The notes beneath the pieces were generated by a model that made no database searches, had not been told where the DNA came from, and was given only the letters and a program-made list of their open reading frames with translations. 64,000 bases of DNA, from positions 89,253 to 153,252 of the forward strand of contig CAIQBW010000012.1 of the NCBI GenBank assembly GCA_903870165.1, in the 5' to 3' direction. Each line of letters opens with the position of its first letter. Within the stretch, counting starts at the first letter, position 1. Shown here piece by piece: positions 51,132 through 63,721 of the stretch. A program made the position numbers and the translations under genes. This DNA comes from an uncultured Methylophilaceae bacterium (GTDB taxonomy: Bacteria; Pseudomonadota; Gammaproteobacteria; Burkholderiales; Methylophilaceae).

Positions 51132-53314
51132 TTAAAATCGATAACTAGCACTTAGACCCACAATATAATTGCGACCAGCACCCGCTTCATAAAATTCACC
51201 ATTACTATCGTTAATTCTAACAGCGCTGATATAGTCTCGATCAAAAATGTTATCTACACGCGCGTATTCTGAGAAACGCCAATTACTAATTTCTTGCTTG
51301 AACCCAGCGCGAATATTAACGATGCTATATCCACTAGCATACGCAGTATTGTTATCGTTAGCATAAGTTTTAGAGTTGTTTACAGACTCAAGAGCTGTTG
51401 TGAATCCAAGGCTAGGATAAGTCCAGGACAGTTCACCATAGAGTTGATTCTTAAATGTTCCAGGAATGGTATTTCCCTTACTAATTCCCAATCCCAATCC
51501 ACTATAAGCAGCGTCATATTTAGCATCCATATAAGTATAGGCTGCGTAAACATTAAAGTTATGTTGTAATTTACTATCTAAAGAGAGTTCCAGACCGTTT
51601 CTAGAAGTTTCAACAGGAACATTAAAGTAACTCGCATACCCGCTAGTATTAGAATAAACTGCAATCTCGTTTCTAGTGATCGTTCTAAATAATGCTAAAT
51701 TTATACGTGTATTTTCATTTACAAATGATTTAAACCCCACTTCATAATTATCACTATTACTTGCTGCAAGATTTAGATTAGGGCCTTGGCCTGTTGAAGT
51801 TCCATCTGTATATGCCATTTGAATACTATTAGGAGTTTGGAATCCCTTTCCATAATTCACATAAGCATTAGTGTCCTCCCTAACTTTCCAAAGAAAGCCA
51901 ATAGAGGGGGTAGTATTGCTAAATTGAACGCTTCCTTTGCTTACACCTCCTGTGATATGAGGATTAAAATTCAAGATACTGTGAATATTTCTAACTCCAG
52001 CGTTTAAATCTAGATTATTAAAAATTGATAGTTTTCCTTGGACATACTCATCGAAATTCATTGAGTTATCAGTTTCATTTCTGTTTGGAGATGCAGATTG
52101 GGCTGCTGATACAGAACCATTAGTTGCATTAAAGTCCATCCTGTCATCTGACATATAGGCATAAGATATACCAGAAGTTAATGTATAGTTTTTACTGAAA
52201 ATATCACCCTTATTAGTTCAGTTAATATCTGCACCTATAAAATCACGAGAAATTGTACTTTCTTTACCACAGTAGGATCCGGTCGCACCTAAACAAGGAT
52301 CACTGCCATGAGAATTTGGATATACTGCAGGAATTGCTAAAGTAGATAAGTACTGCGCGTTGTTTCTGTGTCCCGCATAAGTAACGATATTGATTGAGTT
52401 ATTATCATTAATAATGTGTTCAAGATTAATACCTAATTGAGTATTCTCTCTAGCTACTCTTGTGTTAGCTCCGATGGCTGCAGATGGCACTCCTTGAGGA
52501 TTAGATGAAATCATTGGAATGCTACTTAAATAGCTAGAGTGAGATGCCGCAGAAAGTGTAGAAGCAGTCCCCACTCCACCTAGGCCAAGTGGATCTTGGG
52601 CTTCCATCTTCATGTAATCAGCTAATACCGTGAAATGTGTATCACTGCCAAGGTCGAAAGAAAACTCAGCAGTTGATTGTTTTTTGTGCGCTGCACTATG
52701 TTGACGATAACCGTCAGTATTAAAATTTGATTCATTGAGTAAATAGCCAATGCCATTAATCGTTCCAGTAGCTTGGGCTGATTCTTTAGTCGTTCCATAA
52801 CTTCCAGCCAAGAAACTTGCGCTCACTTCATTACCAGTTGGAGGGGTTTTTATGGTTAATGAAATCACTCCACCAGCACCGTTTCCGTACATAGTAGCAA
52901 ATGGGCCTTTCAAGACTTCAATTGATTTAACAGTTTCAAAATCAATATTACCTGGCTGCCCAATGCCATCTGGCATAGTCAAAGGAATGCCATCCACATA
53001 AAGTCTTATGCCTGTTACACCAAAGTTAGAGCGCAATCCAAATCCACGAATGGAAATTTGAGGATCTTGAGCAAACTGGTTTCTACTTTCGGCAGTAACA
53101 CCAGCGATACGATTAATACTTTCTGACAAAATCATGCCAGCACCAGCATTTTCAATGACTGATTGATCGACGACATCTACAGAAGCTGGAGCATCAAAAC
53201 TATTAACAGCAGAGCGAGTTGCTGTAACGACAATAGGATTTAATTCACGTTATCAGCCAGTACACTTGTTGAAAAAAGACTAGCAACAAGCATTAATAAT
53301 GGTTTTCTATTCAT
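51132..53314 (-). pseudogene. TonB-dependent outer-membrane receptor, YncD/PqqU-like; disrupted by one frameshift near 53246 and one in-frame TGA at 52218-52220
   Basis: Signal peptide MNRKPLLMLVASLFSTSVLADN (start 53314, reading frame 2), then ELNPIVVTATRSAVNSFDAPASVDVVDQ...ISIRGFGLRSNFGVTGIRLYVDGIPLTMPDGIGQPGNIDFETVKSIEVLKGPFATMYGNGAGG in frame 0, TGA at 52218, then the barrel continues in the same frame to ...VDNIFDRDYISAVRINDSNGEFYEAGAGRNYIVGLSASYRF. Confidence 0.88.
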
Positions 53315-53550
53315 CTCAATTTATTCTTATAAATTTTTGGAGTACGAATATTAAGGATTTAACAACTTTGACGCCATGATGAAAATCATGAAAATTTACA
53401 TATTTGCAACATTTCTCGCAAAAAAATTGGCTATCTAAATTTATTGAAGTACGATGTCAGCATATTAAGTCATCGAAACTTAATTAAATACAAAAAGTTT
53501 ATGTAATGTTGTTAAAACTAATTCGACTTAAAAATGAGAGGAACCAACCT

Positions 53551-54348
53551 TTGAAAAAACAGAATCTAATATTGATTGGCATTTTTGCTTTATTGATCAC
53601 CACAATTTCATCAGCAAATGCAGAATCCGACCCTTCTAAATGGCCATTAGTAAAAGAGGCTTTTTTTTCACAAAGGTCGATGGCAGATGCTCCTTTTATT
53701 ACCTTTGTAGCCCCTCGCCGTGCTGAAAGCGGTGCACAAGTGCCTCTTGAGATTTCTATCGACCAAACACAGGCCGACGCTAACGCGATTAAAACGCTTT
53801 ATGTATTGGTAGATTCAAACCCTATTCCGCTGGCGGCCACTTATCACCTTACAGATAAATTAGGTAAATTTAAGCTTGCTACGCGTATTCGTATGGAGAT
53901 GGACTCTTACATTCGTGCAGTGGGCGAAACTGCGGATGGCAAGCTCTTTATAGCCTCTGTAGAAATTCGCGCGGCTGGCGGCTGTGGTGGCACAGTAGAT
54001 GGCGATGAAAATGCAATTCGTGCGGCAGCAGGCAAAATTAAAATGAATGTAGAAAGCCCTGTTAAGTTTGGCGATGCGACTTCAGCCACTTTTATCATCA
54101 AACACCCAATGCGAACTGGCTTGCAACGTGATCTAGTATCGCAAGGATTTGTGCCAGCTTTTTATATTCAAAAGGCTGCATTCACTTACAACAACGAGCC
54201 TGTGATGAATGTTGATTTTGGTGTGGGCACAAGTGAAGACCCTTACTTAAGATTTAACTTTATCCCTAGCGCGCCTGGGGTGTTAGCTGTAAAAGCTGTT
54301 GATAACGATGGCAAAGAATTTACCCATCAAACTGAAGTGAGAAACTAA
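53551..54348 (+). CDS. Quinoprotein dehydrogenase-associated SoxYZ-like carrier protein (probable TTG start 53551; ORF track 53506)
   Basis: Signal peptide (M)KKQNLILIGIFALLITTISSANA; SoxY-like domain ending in AAGGCGGTVDG; SoxZ-like C-terminal domain (KHPMRTGLQRD...PYLRFNFIPSAPGVLAVKAVDNDGKEF). Confidence 0.88.
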   Translation: MKKQNLILIGIFALLITTISSANAESDPSKWPLVKEAFFSQRSMADAPFITFVAPRRAESGAQVPLEISIDQTQADANAIKTLYVLVDSNPIPLAATYHLTDKLGKFKLATRIRMEMDSYIRAVGETADGKLFIASVEIRAAGGCGGTVDGDENAIRAAAGKIKMNVESPVKFGDATSATFIIKHPMRTGLQRDLVSQGFVPAFYIQKAAFTYNNEPVMNVDFGVGTSEDPYLRFNFIPSAPGVLAVKAVDNDGKEFTHQTEVRN

Positions 54349-54378
54349 ACGGCATAAAATACTTAAGTTTAGGCAATG

Positions 54379-54410
54379 AAAAAGGGCGCTGAGGCGCCCT
54401 TTTCTTTTTT
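54379..54410. terminator. Bidirectional terminator-like hairpin between convergent genes
   Basis: aaaaaGGGCGCtgagGCGCCCttttctttttt. Confidence 0.85.
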
Positions 54411-54425
54411 ATATCAGCCGCTTAG

Positions 54426-55055
54426 TTACTTCTTGCAAGAGCCTTTACAGCACAATCCACATAATGACATACGTTTCATTGTGCCGTCTTTATCAATAAA
54501 CTTGTGTTTCAAAGCGCCCAATACGTGAACGCCAATTACCACTAGCATGATGATACCTACCACTTCGTGGACGTCTACAAACGATTCACGAATCGCTTTG
54601 TTATCTAAACCATTCATCAAGCTGATACCGAACCATTTCACGCCATATTCAAATTTGCTGTTAATAGCCATGACTAACCCTGTAATTGGCAAGGAAAACA
54701 TAAGCAGGTAAAGCAAATGGTGGCCGCCAGTGGCAATCTTTTTCTCAATGGCAGTGAGGCTGCCCAAAAGTGCTGGTGGACGGTGTGTAATGCGCCAGAG
54801 GAAACGGAACGCTACAAGACCTAAAATAGTAATCCCAATTGATTTATGTAAGTTAAAGTAGAAAGTTCTTGGAGTCACTTCAACAGCCATATTCCATGTG
54901 TAGATTCCCAAATTAAATAAGTCAAAAGCCGTTGTTTTAGGTTGATCTTTTGGAATGTCGGACATAAACCAGCCTAAAGCAAACATCGCCAAAATAGCGA
55001 TACCTATCAGCCAATGTAAAATAATGGCTGTTTTTGTGTATTGATTCTGCGTCAT
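54426..55055 (-). CDS. Cytochrome b561-family protein with Cys-rich C-terminal tail
   Basis: Four TM helices with conserved His (ILHWLIGIAI, HKSIGITILGLVAFRFLWRITHRPP, GHHLLYLLMF, VHEVVGIIMLVVIGVHVLGALKHKFIDKDGT). Confidence 0.9.
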   Translation of the reverse strand: MTQNQYTKTAIILHWLIGIAILAMFALGWFMSDIPKDQPKTTAFDLFNLGIYTWNMAVEVTPRTFYFNLHKSIGITILGLVAFRFLWRITHRPPALLGSLTAIEKKIATGGHHLLYLLMFSLPITGLVMAINSKFEYGVKWFGISLMNGLDNKAIRESFVDVHEVVGIIMLVVIGVHVLGALKHKFIDKDGTMKRMSLCGLCCKGSCKK

Positions 55056-55191
55056 ACTTTTCCCCTTATAAAATACTAATGCATAAACTTATGCGTGCTA
55101 TATTGCATCATTAACGCTACTCTTGCTAGACCTGATTACAAATTAAAAGTTTTACAATCGTAGGCAAACAGATTGCCTTAAAGGACATTCA

Positions 55192-56112
55192 ATGCTTAAA
55201 AAGATACTACTTGGAATCGCGGCATTTTCAATTACTCATGCCGCTTCAGCCGCACCTTTAGCCATGGAGAATTTAGGAAATGGTGTATACGTGCATCACG
55301 GCGCTCATGAGGACATGTCCGAAGGCTACCATGCTGATATTTGTAATGTGAGCTTTATTGTTGGCAGCAAGGGCATTGCAGTGGTTGATACAGGTGGTAG
55401 CTTAAAAACGGGGCAAGCCCTGCATGAGGCCATACGCCAAGTTTCTAATCTGCCGATTCTTTATGTCATCAATACCCATGTGCATCCAGACCATATTTTT
55501 GGTAACGCGGCATTTAAAGAGGACAAAGCTATCTTTGTAGGCCATGAAAAACTGCCTGATGCCATGGAGCGTCGCCGTGATAATTATTTAAGAATTAATC
55601 AACAATGGCTAGGTGAAGCTTTTGCAGGCAGTGAAATCGTTAAACCTAGCGTGCTGGTTAAAACAACCGCCAATCTGGACTTAGGCGACAGATCACTCTT
55701 ACTCACCGCCTACCCAACTGCACACACCAATACGGATTTAACGGTATTCGATAATAAAAGCTCAACGATTTGGACAGGTGATTTACTATTTGTGGAGCGC
55801 ACTCCTTCAATTGATGGCGATATCAAAGGCTGGTTAGCAGTGATCAATGAGCTTAAAAACAACGAGGCAGCATTTGCAATTCCTGGCCATAGTAGCTCAC
55901 TCAAAGATGCGAACTGGAAAGAACAACTCAATAATGAAGAGCGTTATTTATGGACGCTATTAAACGACATCCGCGCCAGCATCAAAAAAGGTGAGGTGAT
56001 GGAAAAAGCAATGGGCACCGCGGCGGCTTCTGAGCGTAGCTACTGGCAACTTTTTGATATCGTAAATCGCCGCAATGTGAACAACATTTACCCTGCATTA
56101 GAGTGGGAGTAG
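55192..56112 (+). CDS. Exported MBL-fold metallohydrolase, quinoprotein relay system zinc metallohydrolase type
   Basis: Signal peptide; NTHVHPDHIFGN (HxHxDH), TAHTNTDLTVF, GDLLFVERTPSIDGDIKGW, IPGHSS; next to the SoxYZ-like carrier and cyt b561. Confidence 0.85.
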   Translation: MLKKILLGIAAFSITHAASAAPLAMENLGNGVYVHHGAHEDMSEGYHADICNVSFIVGSKGIAVVDTGGSLKTGQALHEAIRQVSNLPILYVINTHVHPDHIFGNAAFKEDKAIFVGHEKLPDAMERRRDNYLRINQQWLGEAFAGSEIVKPSVLVKTTANLDLGDRSLLLTAYPTAHTNTDLTVFDNKSSTIWTGDLLFVERTPSIDGDIKGWLAVINELKNNEAAFAIPGHSSSLKDANWKEQLNNEERYLWTLLNDIRASIKKGEVMEKAMGTAAASERSYWQLFDIVNRRNVNNIYPALEWE

Positions 56113-56204: not shown

Positions 56205-56912
56205 TTGGCTATTTTTTCTCAACTCTCATTTAATCGTGACAATGCATTTGCATGGGCATTAGCAATCTCTATTGCATTGCACGCGCTTGCCGCATTAGAA
56301 ATCCCTGGGATTTCTTTTGAGAAAATGGTAAAACCAGTAGAGCTAACTATTGAGCTGGCACCGCCAAAACCTTTACCACCGCCTCCACCTCCGCCAGTAA
56401 AACCGCCCGAGCCAGTAAAACCGAAAGTTGTGCCTCCAAAACAACCTAAGCCAATTCCTCATCCAGAGGTAAAGCCGGTAATTACACCTCAACCCATCAG
56501 TGAGCCTCCACCTGTGATTGCTGCTGCACCAAAGGCAGAGGCACCACCAACATTTGTAGCGCCTACACCTGTTATAACAAAACCAGAACCAACAAAACCA
56601 ACCGTTAATCAAGCAGACCTTGATTCAGCACGTAATCAATACGGCAGTGCATTAAGCCGAGAAATTGCTAAGCACATTAACTATCCGGGTATTGCAAAAA
56701 TGCGAGGCTGGCAGGGCGTGGTTGAGATTGATTTCCAATTAGATGGCAATGGTAAGATTTTGAGCCAAAAAATCCATACTTCTAGCGGCTTCCCTGTGCT
56801 AGATAATCAAGCTTTAGAGATGGTTAAAAAATCGAACTTCCCTATGCCTCCGGAAGTCCTAAAAAGTAGCGCATTTAATGTGACGGTGCCTGTTTCATTC
56901 AAGCTTGAATGA
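56205..56912 (+). CDS. tonB: TonB-family energy transducer
   Basis: N-terminal TM, Pro/Lys-rich spacer (PPKPLPPPPPPPVKPPEPVKPKVV), TonB_C domain (INYPGIAKMRGWQGVVEIDFQLDGNGKI). Confidence 0.9.
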   Translation: MAIFSQLSFNRDNAFAWALAISIALHALAALEIPGISFEKMVKPVELTIELAPPKPLPPPPPPPVKPPEPVKPKVVPPKQPKPIPHPEVKPVITPQPISEPPPVIAAAPKAEAPPTFVAPTPVITKPEPTKPTVNQADLDSARNQYGSALSREIAKHINYPGIAKMRGWQGVVEIDFQLDGNGKILSQKIHTSSGFPVLDNQALEMVKKSNFPMPPEVLKSSAFNVTVPVSFKLE

Positions 56913-61499: not shown

Positions 61500-62017
61500 T
61501 TATTCGTTACCAGTGAGCTTATCGTTATGACTACGAATCCAAGCCTGAATCTGTAATACCTCATCTGGTTTTAAACCATTTGTTGGATCTGTAGGGTCCA
61601 TTAAGCCTTTACCTTTTGCTCCCATCCCTCCATTTGTTCCATTCCAAATCGTTTCAAACATTCCTTTGTTCGTCGCATTTTTTGCATAATGAAAATCGGG
61701 GCCATGTAAGCTTGGGCCTGTTTGACCTTGCGCATCGCCACCATGACATTGTGTGCATGAGTACATCTGGAATAGCTTCTTACCTTGGGCAATAGCATCT
61801 GCATTGCCAATGTAGGGATTTTTACCTGTTGCGCTAAACGCTTTCGATTGGGCTGTATCAAAAAGTTCTGCTTTAATTTCTAGCGGGCTCCCATCTTGGG
61901 TTTGACAAATGCCACCATAGCAGCACCTTTTGACGCTGAACCAGTCTCTGACTTGCCAGAGCAAGCTACTAAAGTTGCCAATGTAAGCACTGATACCATT
62001 AATAATTTTGTTTGCAT
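61500..62017 (-). pseudogene. XoxG-like cytochrome c with lipoprotein-type signal, apparent 1-nt frameshift at about 61919/61920
   Basis: Start 62017 gives MQTKLLMVSVLTLATLVACSGKSETGSASKGAA; the body continues only in another frame YGGICQTQDGSPLEIK...YSCTQCHGGDAQGQTGPSLHG. The ORF-track start at 61964 is in a non-homologous frame. Confidence 0.75.
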
Positions 62018-62092
62018 ATAAACGTTAGCCTATTTTTTATTTTTTCTATGCTACAGGCTTATTTTAACTCAACTTGTTAAGGTCTATAAAAC

Positions 62093-62121
62093 AAAAAAGG
62101 CTACCCGAAGGTAGCCTTTTT
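62093..62121. terminator. Terminator-like hairpin downstream of the xoxG-like gene
   Basis: aaaaaaGGCTACCcgaaGGTAGCCttttt. Confidence 0.85.
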
Positions 62122-62135
62122 ATCACACAAAAAAA

Positions 62136-62666
62136 TTAATTTTGTGGAGTTTCGTTCAACCATGGTTTGTCGCCGCCACCTGCGTACATACTACGCAACC
62201 AACCAATAATACGTAAGATTTCGTCAGTTTTTAACAGTTCTGGATTGCCTGCTGCTTGATTGTGCCAAGTTGGCATACCAGCATTTGAACCACCAGCGAT
62301 TGTTTCAAACATACCTTTATCTGTTGTGTGCTTAGAGTACTGCCATGTTGCGTCAGTAATACTTGGACCGGTTTGGCCGCCTGCGTTACCGCCGTGACAT
62401 TGTGTACATGACCAGTAACCGAATAGTTTTTTACCGGTTTTTGCAACATCAGCATCAGCTACCGCTTTTTTAGTGTATGGATTTACACAAGTTGCCAAAA
62501 ATTCTTTAGCTTCTGGTGTATCTTCATCAACCGCTTTAATTGGCAATGGGCTGCCATCTTTTGTTGATACTAATTGACAAGCAGCACTGGCTTGAAGAGG
62601 CAATAAGCCAACTAAAGCTAATACTGAACTCAAAATAATTGCTTTTACAGCGTTGTTGCCTAACAT
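62136..62666 (-). CDS. xoxG: Cytochrome c, XoxG-like (c-type, methanol dehydrogenase electron acceptor candidate)
   Basis: Signal peptide; single CTQCHGG heme motif; adjacent to xoxJ and xoxF. Confidence 0.8.
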   Translation of the reverse strand: MLGNNAVKAIILSSVLALVGLLPLQASAACQLVSTKDGSPLPIKAVDEDTPEAKEFLATCVNPYTKKAVADADVAKTGKKLFGYWSCTQCHGGNAGGQTGPSITDATWQYSKHTTDKGMFETIAGGSNAGMPTWHNQAAGNPELLKTDEILRIIGWLRSMYAGGGDKPWLNETPQN

Positions 62667-62803
62667 GTCATCTCCTAAATTTCGAATAATTGCTTCTGTT
62701 ATATTGGTAGAACAAAAATTTAATTTTGAAGCGTTATTCTATAACGAAACCGAGGGAATATGGTTGACTTTATTCAACAGAATTTCATCAACCATTTCAC
62801 TCA

Positions 62804-63721
62804 TTAAATAGGCTTATCAACCTTCTCGCCACGATTTTGCTCGCGAGCTTTTTTCTCTAAGCTATCCCCTTTAACAACGTTAGAATGTGGGACACCATAC
62901 TGATCTAGAATTTTATCGATATCAGCCTGACGATTAGCAATCGCTTTATTTAACTCTTCAGCACGTGCTTTATCTTTATTACGCACACCGATTGAGATAT
63001 TCCAGTTTTCCTTACCCTTTACGTTTTTATCTTCGTACTCAGGGATAGGGACTACAACAAGAGGAATAGACGCTTGCTTTGCAAAGTAGCCTGCAATCGG
63101 ACCCCATACAATTGCCACATCAATATCACCTTTCACCAAATCATCAATCAATTGACTTGGTGGGAAGTTTAAATCGCGCTGCAAACGATACGGACGCGCA
63201 TTTTCCATTAAGTTATGATCAGCGAGCGGACGTGTTGGAGGACTTTGGCCAACAATACCAATAATGCCTTTTCTTAAATCAGGCGCATCCCAGTCAGTGA
63301 TGTTGTAACCACTACTCTTACGATAAACAAACACGAAACCTGAGCGATAGTAAGGCACTGAAGTACGCATAGAATCGTTATCTGATGTTGTGCTCATTAC
63401 GTAGTCACATCGATTTGCATTTAATGTATTTCTTAGAAAACCTTGACGGTAATAAGCATATTGAAATGAAAGCTTCTTACCTAATTCTTCTGCAAGTACC
63501 GCAGCAATTTTGTCTTCAAAACCTTCCTGCTTGCTGTTTGAGTAAGGCATATTGTCTGGGTCAGCACAGACCTTAAATTCGGTTGGATCTTCAACTCGAC
63601 GAACTTCGCCAATACGTCCTTCATCAGGATTGATTGCCGGAATGTCTGGCATATCCGCAGCTAGTACATTGCCAACTACAACACTGCCTAGCAAAACAGA
63701 CATTAATAGGTTTTTAAACAT
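62804..63721 (-). CDS. xoxJ: XoxJ/MxaJ-like quinoprotein dehydrogenase-associated periplasmic substrate-binding protein
   Basis: FKVCADPDNMPYSNSKQEGFEDKIAAVLAEELGKKLSFQYAYYRQGFLRNTLNANRCD; next to xoxF. Confidence 0.9.
   Translation of the reverse strand: MFKNLLMSVLLGSVVVGNVLAADMPDIPAINPDEGRIGEVRRVEDPTEFKVCADPDNMPYSNSKQEGFEDKIAAVLAEELGKKLSFQYAYYRQGFLRNTLNANRCDYVMSTTSDNDSMRTSVPYYRSGFVFVYRKSSGYNITDWDAPDLRKGIIGIVGQSPPTRPLADHNLMENARPYRLQRDLNFPPSQLIDDLVKGDIDVAIVWGPIAGYFAKQASIPLVVVPIPEYEDKNVKGKENWNISIGVRNKDKARAEELNKAIANRQADIDKILDQYGVPHSNVVKGDSLEKKAREQNRGEKVDKPI

Follow-up and report, generated by a model that had tools for sequence, protein, structure and literature searches.

A fused SoxYZ-like carrier and an exported zinc metallohydrolase beside xox genes: association with PQQ alcohol dehydrogenases and occurrence in phages

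Introduction

Which task could a SoxYZ-like carrier protein and a zinc metallohydrolase have in a methylotrophic bacterium, when their genes lie close to xox genes? This question is raised by a stretch of 64,000 nucleotides (hereafter the window) from an uncultured member of the Methylophilaceae. A sequence-only reading of the window had presented the two proteins and a neighbouring cytochrome b561 as a little-known module, with the hypothesis that the hydrolase releases the product bound by the carrier and that electrons pass via b561. The pair is indeed under-characterised, but it had already been named in NCBIfam and was discussed in 2024 and 2026 (PMC11237559, PMC12997753). It deserves attention since it occurs across methylotrophs and many other PQQ-using bacteria, and the carrier is kept even in genomes of 1.3 Mb. 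The new points of this work are a hydrolase beside a Sox operon, a genus free of the hydrolase, and the probable re-assignment of phage genes.

Results

The carrier and the hydrolase of the window

The carrier gene (53506..54348, plus strand) encodes an exported protein in an ORF of 280 aa. In the profile search, it reaches 233 bits with TIGR04557, the quinoprotein dehydrogenase-associated family (curated cut-off 140), while it stays under the cut-offs of the thiosulfate models for SoxY (TIGR04488, 77.5 bits vs 125) and SoxZ (TIGR04490, 71 bits vs 76). The protein is a SoxY-SoxZ fusion in a single frame with GGC at residues 158-160, and its internal GGCGG arm (residues 158-162; 53977..53991, plus strand) holds Cys160, the sole cysteine of the carrier. 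The fusion with an internal arm cysteine that had been read from the letters is thus borne out by the TIGR04557 score and Cys160, and the ORFs of carrier, b561 and MBL hydrolase were all three found together as described. The arm cysteine is present in every aligned fused or SoxY sequence. Actually, G158 and C160 are invariant in 50/50 fused proteins (alignment A2), as are N105, P106, G145, H200, P201, G205, P246, and D266. The AlphaFold model of the carrier is confident (pLDDT 90), and in the structure match its halves resemble SoxY and SoxZ structures.

The hydrolase gene (55192..56112, plus strand) encodes an exported zinc metallohydrolase of 306 aa, a SoxH-related type 2 protein that scores 394.5 bits with TIGR04559, over the curated cut-off of 280. 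For these window genes, the family matches are far above chance (E = 1e-69 and 1e-118). The HxHxDH metal-binding motif lies at residues 96-101 (55477..55494, plus strand), and with H178, D197, and H233 all seven MBL ligands are in place (H96, H98, D100, and H101 being the others); they are conserved in 32/32 aligned type-2 proteins. By analogy with the MBL superfamily, these seven residues would bind the metal. The AlphaFold model is again confident (pLDDT 93), and its closest folds in the structure search are 8d2z, a chlorothalonil dehalogenase, CphA, and alkylsulfatases.

As for the related type-1 hydrolases, four that adjoin SoxYZ (L053, L063, L064, and L065) are without the full set of metal ligands; one example has N-L-H-P-D-Y replacing HxHxDH, together with D197G. 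These four are possibly pseudoenzymes, and since they have lost metal ligands, hydrolysis is not universal among the relatives.

The surrounding locus and cytochrome b561

G417, a complete genome from the same genus, has the genes in this order: TonB receptor, carrier, b561, hydrolase, TonB, peroxiredoxin, and PhoH-like, followed by a transporter, a disulfide oxidoreductase relative, two xoxG relatives, xoxJ, and xoxF, where some of the names come from sequence inspection. In the window, the TonB-dependent receptor gene (51132..53135, minus strand), which is PqqU-related, is apparently broken: where G417 has an intact 713-aa gene, the window has two ORFs, the frame changes close to the N-terminus, and there is a stop in frame. 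A TonB-like energy-transducing protein follows the hydrolase (56205..56912, plus strand; PF03544, 65 bits). On the minus strand lie two xoxG-like relatives of cytochrome cL, at 61500..61964 and 62136..62666 (TIGR03872, 94 and 92 bits, both under the cut-off of 148), and a xoxJ relative, i.e., a quinoprotein-associated substrate-binding protein, at 62804..63721 (TIGR03871, 283 bits, cut-off 212). Named relatives are nearly all from Methylophilaceae.

The xox cluster that had been placed nearby is represented by the xoxG and xoxJ relatives at 61500-63721, but xoxF falls outside the assembly. The gene was not found in the window assembly, which is 82% complete, and the contig terminates exactly where G417 has xoxF, right after xoxJ (L118/L119). 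A PQQ-like lipoprotein of 612 aa on contig C10 was considered as the XoxF of this genome and was rejected with 416 bits, below the cut-off of 480.

The cytochrome b561 gene (54426..55055, minus strand; 209 aa; PF01292, 107.8 bits, cut-off 30) is divergent from the hydrolase gene. In Methylophilaceae loci b561 adjoins the hydrolase even when SoxYZ sits elsewhere, while outside this family it is near in only 2 of ~38 loci according to the neighbourhood count, by which we rejected it as a core part of the relay. The passage of electrons via b561 is thus not supported as a general role, because b561 follows the hydrolase, not the carrier, within Methylophilaceae; it is a lineage-specific neighbour. 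The C-terminal tail of the window b561 is cysteine-rich (CGLCCKGSCKK), and this tail is partly altered in G417.

The carrier occurs with PQQ alcohol dehydrogenases

Profiling against quinoprotein dehydrogenases, which the sequence-only reading had suggested as a check, was performed on 399 Pseudomonadota genomes. A carrier was counted if TIGR04557 was over its cut-off in one open frame; matches with internal stops, which are split soxY-soxZ pairs read through, were excluded. A PQQ alcohol dehydrogenase match is found in 45/45 genomes with an intact fused SoxYZ vs 97/399 of all genomes, with p values of 1.4e-32 by genome and 2.7e-15 by genus, and the carriers come from 25 genera and 12 families. 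The dehydrogenase is over the family cut-off in 44 of these 45 genomes, the exception being the incomplete window assembly, and in 32/45 it lies within ~20 kb of the carrier. Type 1 or type 2 hydrolase is likewise found in 45/45. The type-2 form exceeds its cut-off in 33 genomes, of which 32 are carrier genomes; the remaining 13 carrier genomes have a type-1-like hydrolase, which adjoins the carrier in the loci retrieved. Fused SoxYZ and hydrolase therefore occur strictly with PQQ alcohol dehydrogenases.

In addition, the carrier is present in 42/64 genomes with a short soluble-type dehydrogenase vs 2/30 with only the long quinohaem-type (p 3e-8), open-frame length being a rough proxy for this split. 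The converse fails, in that about half of the PQQ alcohol dehydrogenase genomes are without the carrier. Outside Methylophilaceae, the neighbours of the carrier include MoxJ, methanol cytochromes, a CXXCW rhodanese, a PQQ beta-propeller, and pqq genes.

Sulfur pathway genes

Among the ORFs scanned in the window we found no soxB, soxA, soxX, or soxCD, as the sequence-only reading had stated, and its concern that a complete Sox pathway might exist elsewhere in the genome found no support. SoxB has no match in the window genome at its 82% completeness, and it is missing from 79/80 Methylophilaceae genomes (found in one). As to loaders, no SoxXA was noticed near the loci, and a CXXCW rhodanese is over cut-off in 0/80 genomes of the family.

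The window genome does hold a canonical split SoxY/SoxZ pair on another contig (C33), over both cut-offs. Taken as proof of a full Sox pathway, this second SoxYZ was rejected, as the pair is canonical but comes without soxB. It is flanked by an M48-like peptidase gene and a FAD protein gene (G000:C33, L009; L113-L117). The same type of locus in other Methylophilaceae has canonical SoxYZ as a fusion, so being fused is not enough to mark a SoxYZ as the quinoprotein type. In the tree, canonical and quinoprotein carriers are separate clades (support 98).

Hydrolase and carrier can occur apart

G364, a genome from the same order with a completeness rating of 100%, has a type-2 hydrolase of 384.6 bits beside soxY-soxZ-soxA-soxX-soxB, each of which is over its own cut-off (L076:4773-10552). 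At 1e-60, TIGR03075 finds no match in this genome, nor does any fused carrier exceed the cut-off there, and the G364 hydrolase branches among those of Methylophilaceae (support 96). Hence the hydrolase can part from the quinoprotein yet remain with a SoxYZ arm, which is probably its constant partner. The position beside a real Sox operon suggests the identity of the partner and offers defined substrates. As G364 is a single case, a transfer of the hydrolase without matching function is possible.

The opposite situation is seen in the streamlined genus g225 (1.2-1.4 Mb), where the hydrolase is missing in 7/7 genomes while it is present in 73/73 other genomes of the family. Here the carrier is retained but divergent (125-131 bits, slightly under the TIGR04557 cut-off), with its cysteine kept in the three loci aligned, and the PQQ alcohol dehydrogenase is kept too. 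The carrier is therefore retained without a type-2 hydrolase. Overall, the notion that the hydrolase releases the product of the carrier gains from the pairing of hydrolase and SoxYZ arms, but the hydrolase is dispensable, being missing from all seven g225 genomes and not found in phages by a search for close relatives.

Carriers encoded by phages

With the protein of another streamlined genus, g227, and alignment A3 as queries, the sequence search found 20 IMG/VR loci that encode relatives of the carrier; the SoxYZ proteins of the window and of g225 as queries retrieved no viral relatives. The cultivated phages of the searched collection gave no match to the carrier, and sox is not mentioned in the paper describing the OM43 phage Melnitz. 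Four viral proteins were scored, and they reach 188-192 bits with TIGR04557 (cut-off 140) vs 59-64 bits with TIGR04488 (cut-off 125). All viral rows of the tree (11/11) group with the g227 carrier (support 98), and this group is nested inside the Methylophilaceae group (support 97). The arm and its flank (IRASGGCSGYMDVHDPELT) are identical in five aligned phage proteins and g227.

The viral carrier genes are flanked by phage genes, i.e., those for tail tube, baseplate hub, ssDNA-binding protein, DNA polymerase, ribonucleotide reductase, and terminase, which makes host contamination unlikely. Since the gene contexts differ, at least two phage types are involved, a T4-like marine one and at least one other. 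In L134, L136, L141, L154, L143, and L155 the quinoprotein-type fused SoxYZ was seen between structural and replication genes. A large protein that is CHASE2-like and adenylate-cyclase-like by eye lies near SoxYZ in L134, L136, L137, L138, and L141. The phage tail tube is closest to that of Pelagibacter phage HTVC008M.

Two of the loci, L134 and L141, also carry an NAD formate dehydrogenase (653 bits in L134, cut-off 329). This enzyme was observed on ~70 IMG/VR contigs (L157-L225), mostly 76-100% identical to that of L134, and two of them have SoxYZ. Because many viral contigs have the gene without the carrier, it supports a C1 context weakly. It was also rejected as a host marker, being 65-71% identical to the Methylophilaceae enzymes, which themselves occur in 7/80 genomes.

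Fused phage soxYZ genes with ggCs arms, including a Methylophilales-like clade, were published as thiosulfate-oxidation genes by Kieft et al. 2021 (PMC8190135), and one viral sequence has already been placed in a xoxF-linked clade (PMC11237559). Judging from the related IMG/VR genes, and not from the sequences of Kieft et al., many of the 44 published phage soxYZ genes are probably the quinoprotein carrier.

Discussion

Proposed role of the pair

We consider it fairly likely that both proteins work in the periplasm on behalf of soluble PQQ methanol/alcohol dehydrogenases (XoxF in this case), one as a thiol-arm carrier and the other as the hydrolase that clears the arm. A small reactive group would be taken over, at the dehydrogenase or close to it, by the one cysteine of the flexible GGCGG arm inside the carrier; the zinc hydrolase, as a relative of SoxH, would then hydrolyse the arm conjugate and restore the free thiol. 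What we observe in this respect is that the proteins are associated with the dehydrogenase, that the cysteine is invariant and the metal site complete, and that the hydrolase pairs with SoxYZ arms, in G364 as well. The alkylsulfatases among the fold neighbours of the hydrolase also count for this explanation. Against it stand g225 without the hydrolase, the ligand-poor type-1 relatives, the lack of an evident loader, and the report that the P. putida homologues had little effect on alcohols without lanthanide in RB-TnSeq (PMC12997753).

Regarding the cargo, we see about an even chance that it is a reduced sulfur species which would otherwise attack PQQ. A C1/acyl thioester is a tentative second candidate, and a maturation or cofactor role in place of either cargo appears doubtful. 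Sulfur is slightly favoured over C1 because of G364, the kinship with SoxH, and the published finding that thiosulfate inhibits growth on methanol (PMC12997753); for SoxH of other sulfur oxidisers, a role in freeing sulfate from SoxY has been proposed (PMC10045233, PMC11237559). C1, in turn, is favoured by the fact that no loaders were detected in Methylophilaceae and by the linkage with formate dehydrogenase.

These last points belong to a specific thioester scheme, which we regard as unlikely though worth spelling out: formaldehyde would add to the arm thiol non-enzymatically, the quinoprotein would turn the resulting thiohemiacetal into a thioester by oxidation, and formate would be freed by the hydrolase. 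This would be a protein-bound counterpart, in the periplasm, of the glutathione formaldehyde pathway. Such a scheme suits an arm that has no constant partner other than a dehydrogenase which produces aldehyde, and a thiohemiacetal that forms spontaneously requires no loader. It also fits the two phage contigs that pair the carrier with NAD formate dehydrogenase, and the lucinid symbionts in which soxYZ-S4 adjoins fdhAB and xoxF (PMC11237559). Two findings speak against it: the G364 hydrolase adjoins a thiosulfate Sox cluster and has no PQQ alcohol dehydrogenase in its genome, and g225 has the carrier and no hydrolase. Moreover, glyoxalase II is missing among the 50 best fold matches of the hydrolase, and the phage formate dehydrogenase is widespread without SoxYZ.

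Another suggestion (PMC12997753) is that the carrier helps in maturation or redox repair, forming or repairing a vicinal disulfide or loading PQQ or a metal. The strict association with the dehydrogenase, the one vicinal CC pair in XoxF of the same genus, and the adjacent broken PqqU-like receptor gene would agree with it. We nevertheless judge it improbable, for a single-cysteine protein is poorly suited to disulfide catalysis, the hydrolase would be left without an evident task, and in G364 the hydrolase lies beside a Sox cluster without the dehydrogenase. Finally, that the fusion is a plain SoxYZ for thiosulfate oxidation, as a relic or a part of a full pathway, is very hard to believe despite its fold and sequence similarity to SoxY/SoxZ and the canonical genes elsewhere in the genome, since it scores under both the SoxY and SoxZ cut-offs, belongs to a clade separate from canonical SoxYZ, sits in a family with soxB missing in 79/80 genomes, and has a locus that travels with xox genes.

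Returning to the carrier-hydrolase pair and its proposed service to PQQ dehydrogenases, we lean, by a little, towards a wider proposal: in marine phages of the T4-like type, and in at least one further phage type, the carrier may be an auxiliary gene of methanol oxidation, the published phage 'soxYZ' genes may at least partly boost methanol oxidation of the host, and carrier and hydrolase may form an exchangeable arm-loading/arm-clearing cassette for methanol and thiosulfate oxidation. If this is true, estimates of the phage share in ocean sulfur oxidation need revision, and the influence of phages on methanol turnover becomes a testable topic.

Comparison with known systems

The thiosulfate Sox system (SoxXA-SoxYZ-SoxB) has the arm-carrier principle in common with the window pair, but it uses a separate SoxY with a C-terminal arm, SoxXA as loader, and SoxB as hydrolase, while the window genome is without soxB. 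Closer is the TIGR04557 protein PP_2677 of P. putida, which by its description (PMC12997753) shares the family, the fused architecture, the arm cysteine, and the quinoprotein context. Unlike PP_2677, the window carrier belongs to a methylotrophic family with no CXXCW rhodanese over cut-off, and to a xox locus with b561. Published homologues also exist in Methylorubrum extorquens AM1 (META1p1703-1705). Similarly, the TIGR04559 protein PP_2678 and the window hydrolase are of the same family, exported, with a full metal site, and adjoin a SoxYZ fusion; the differences are that b561 is divergently adjacent to the window hydrolase, and that a close relative of the latter lies beside the complete Sox cluster of G364. 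The phage soxYZ of Kieft et al. 2021 (PMC8190135) is fused with a ggCs arm like the carrier, and its IMG/VR relatives score here as the quinoprotein carrier and cluster with that of a streamlined methylotroph. In the lucinid symbionts, for which we noticed no count of co-occurrence across genomes in the published work, the SoxYZ-S2 and SoxYZ-S4 clades are by description likewise fusions beside PQQ-ADH or xoxF and soxH, for which the authors suggested a role in carbon metabolism or in the protection of methanol dehydrogenase (PMC11237559).
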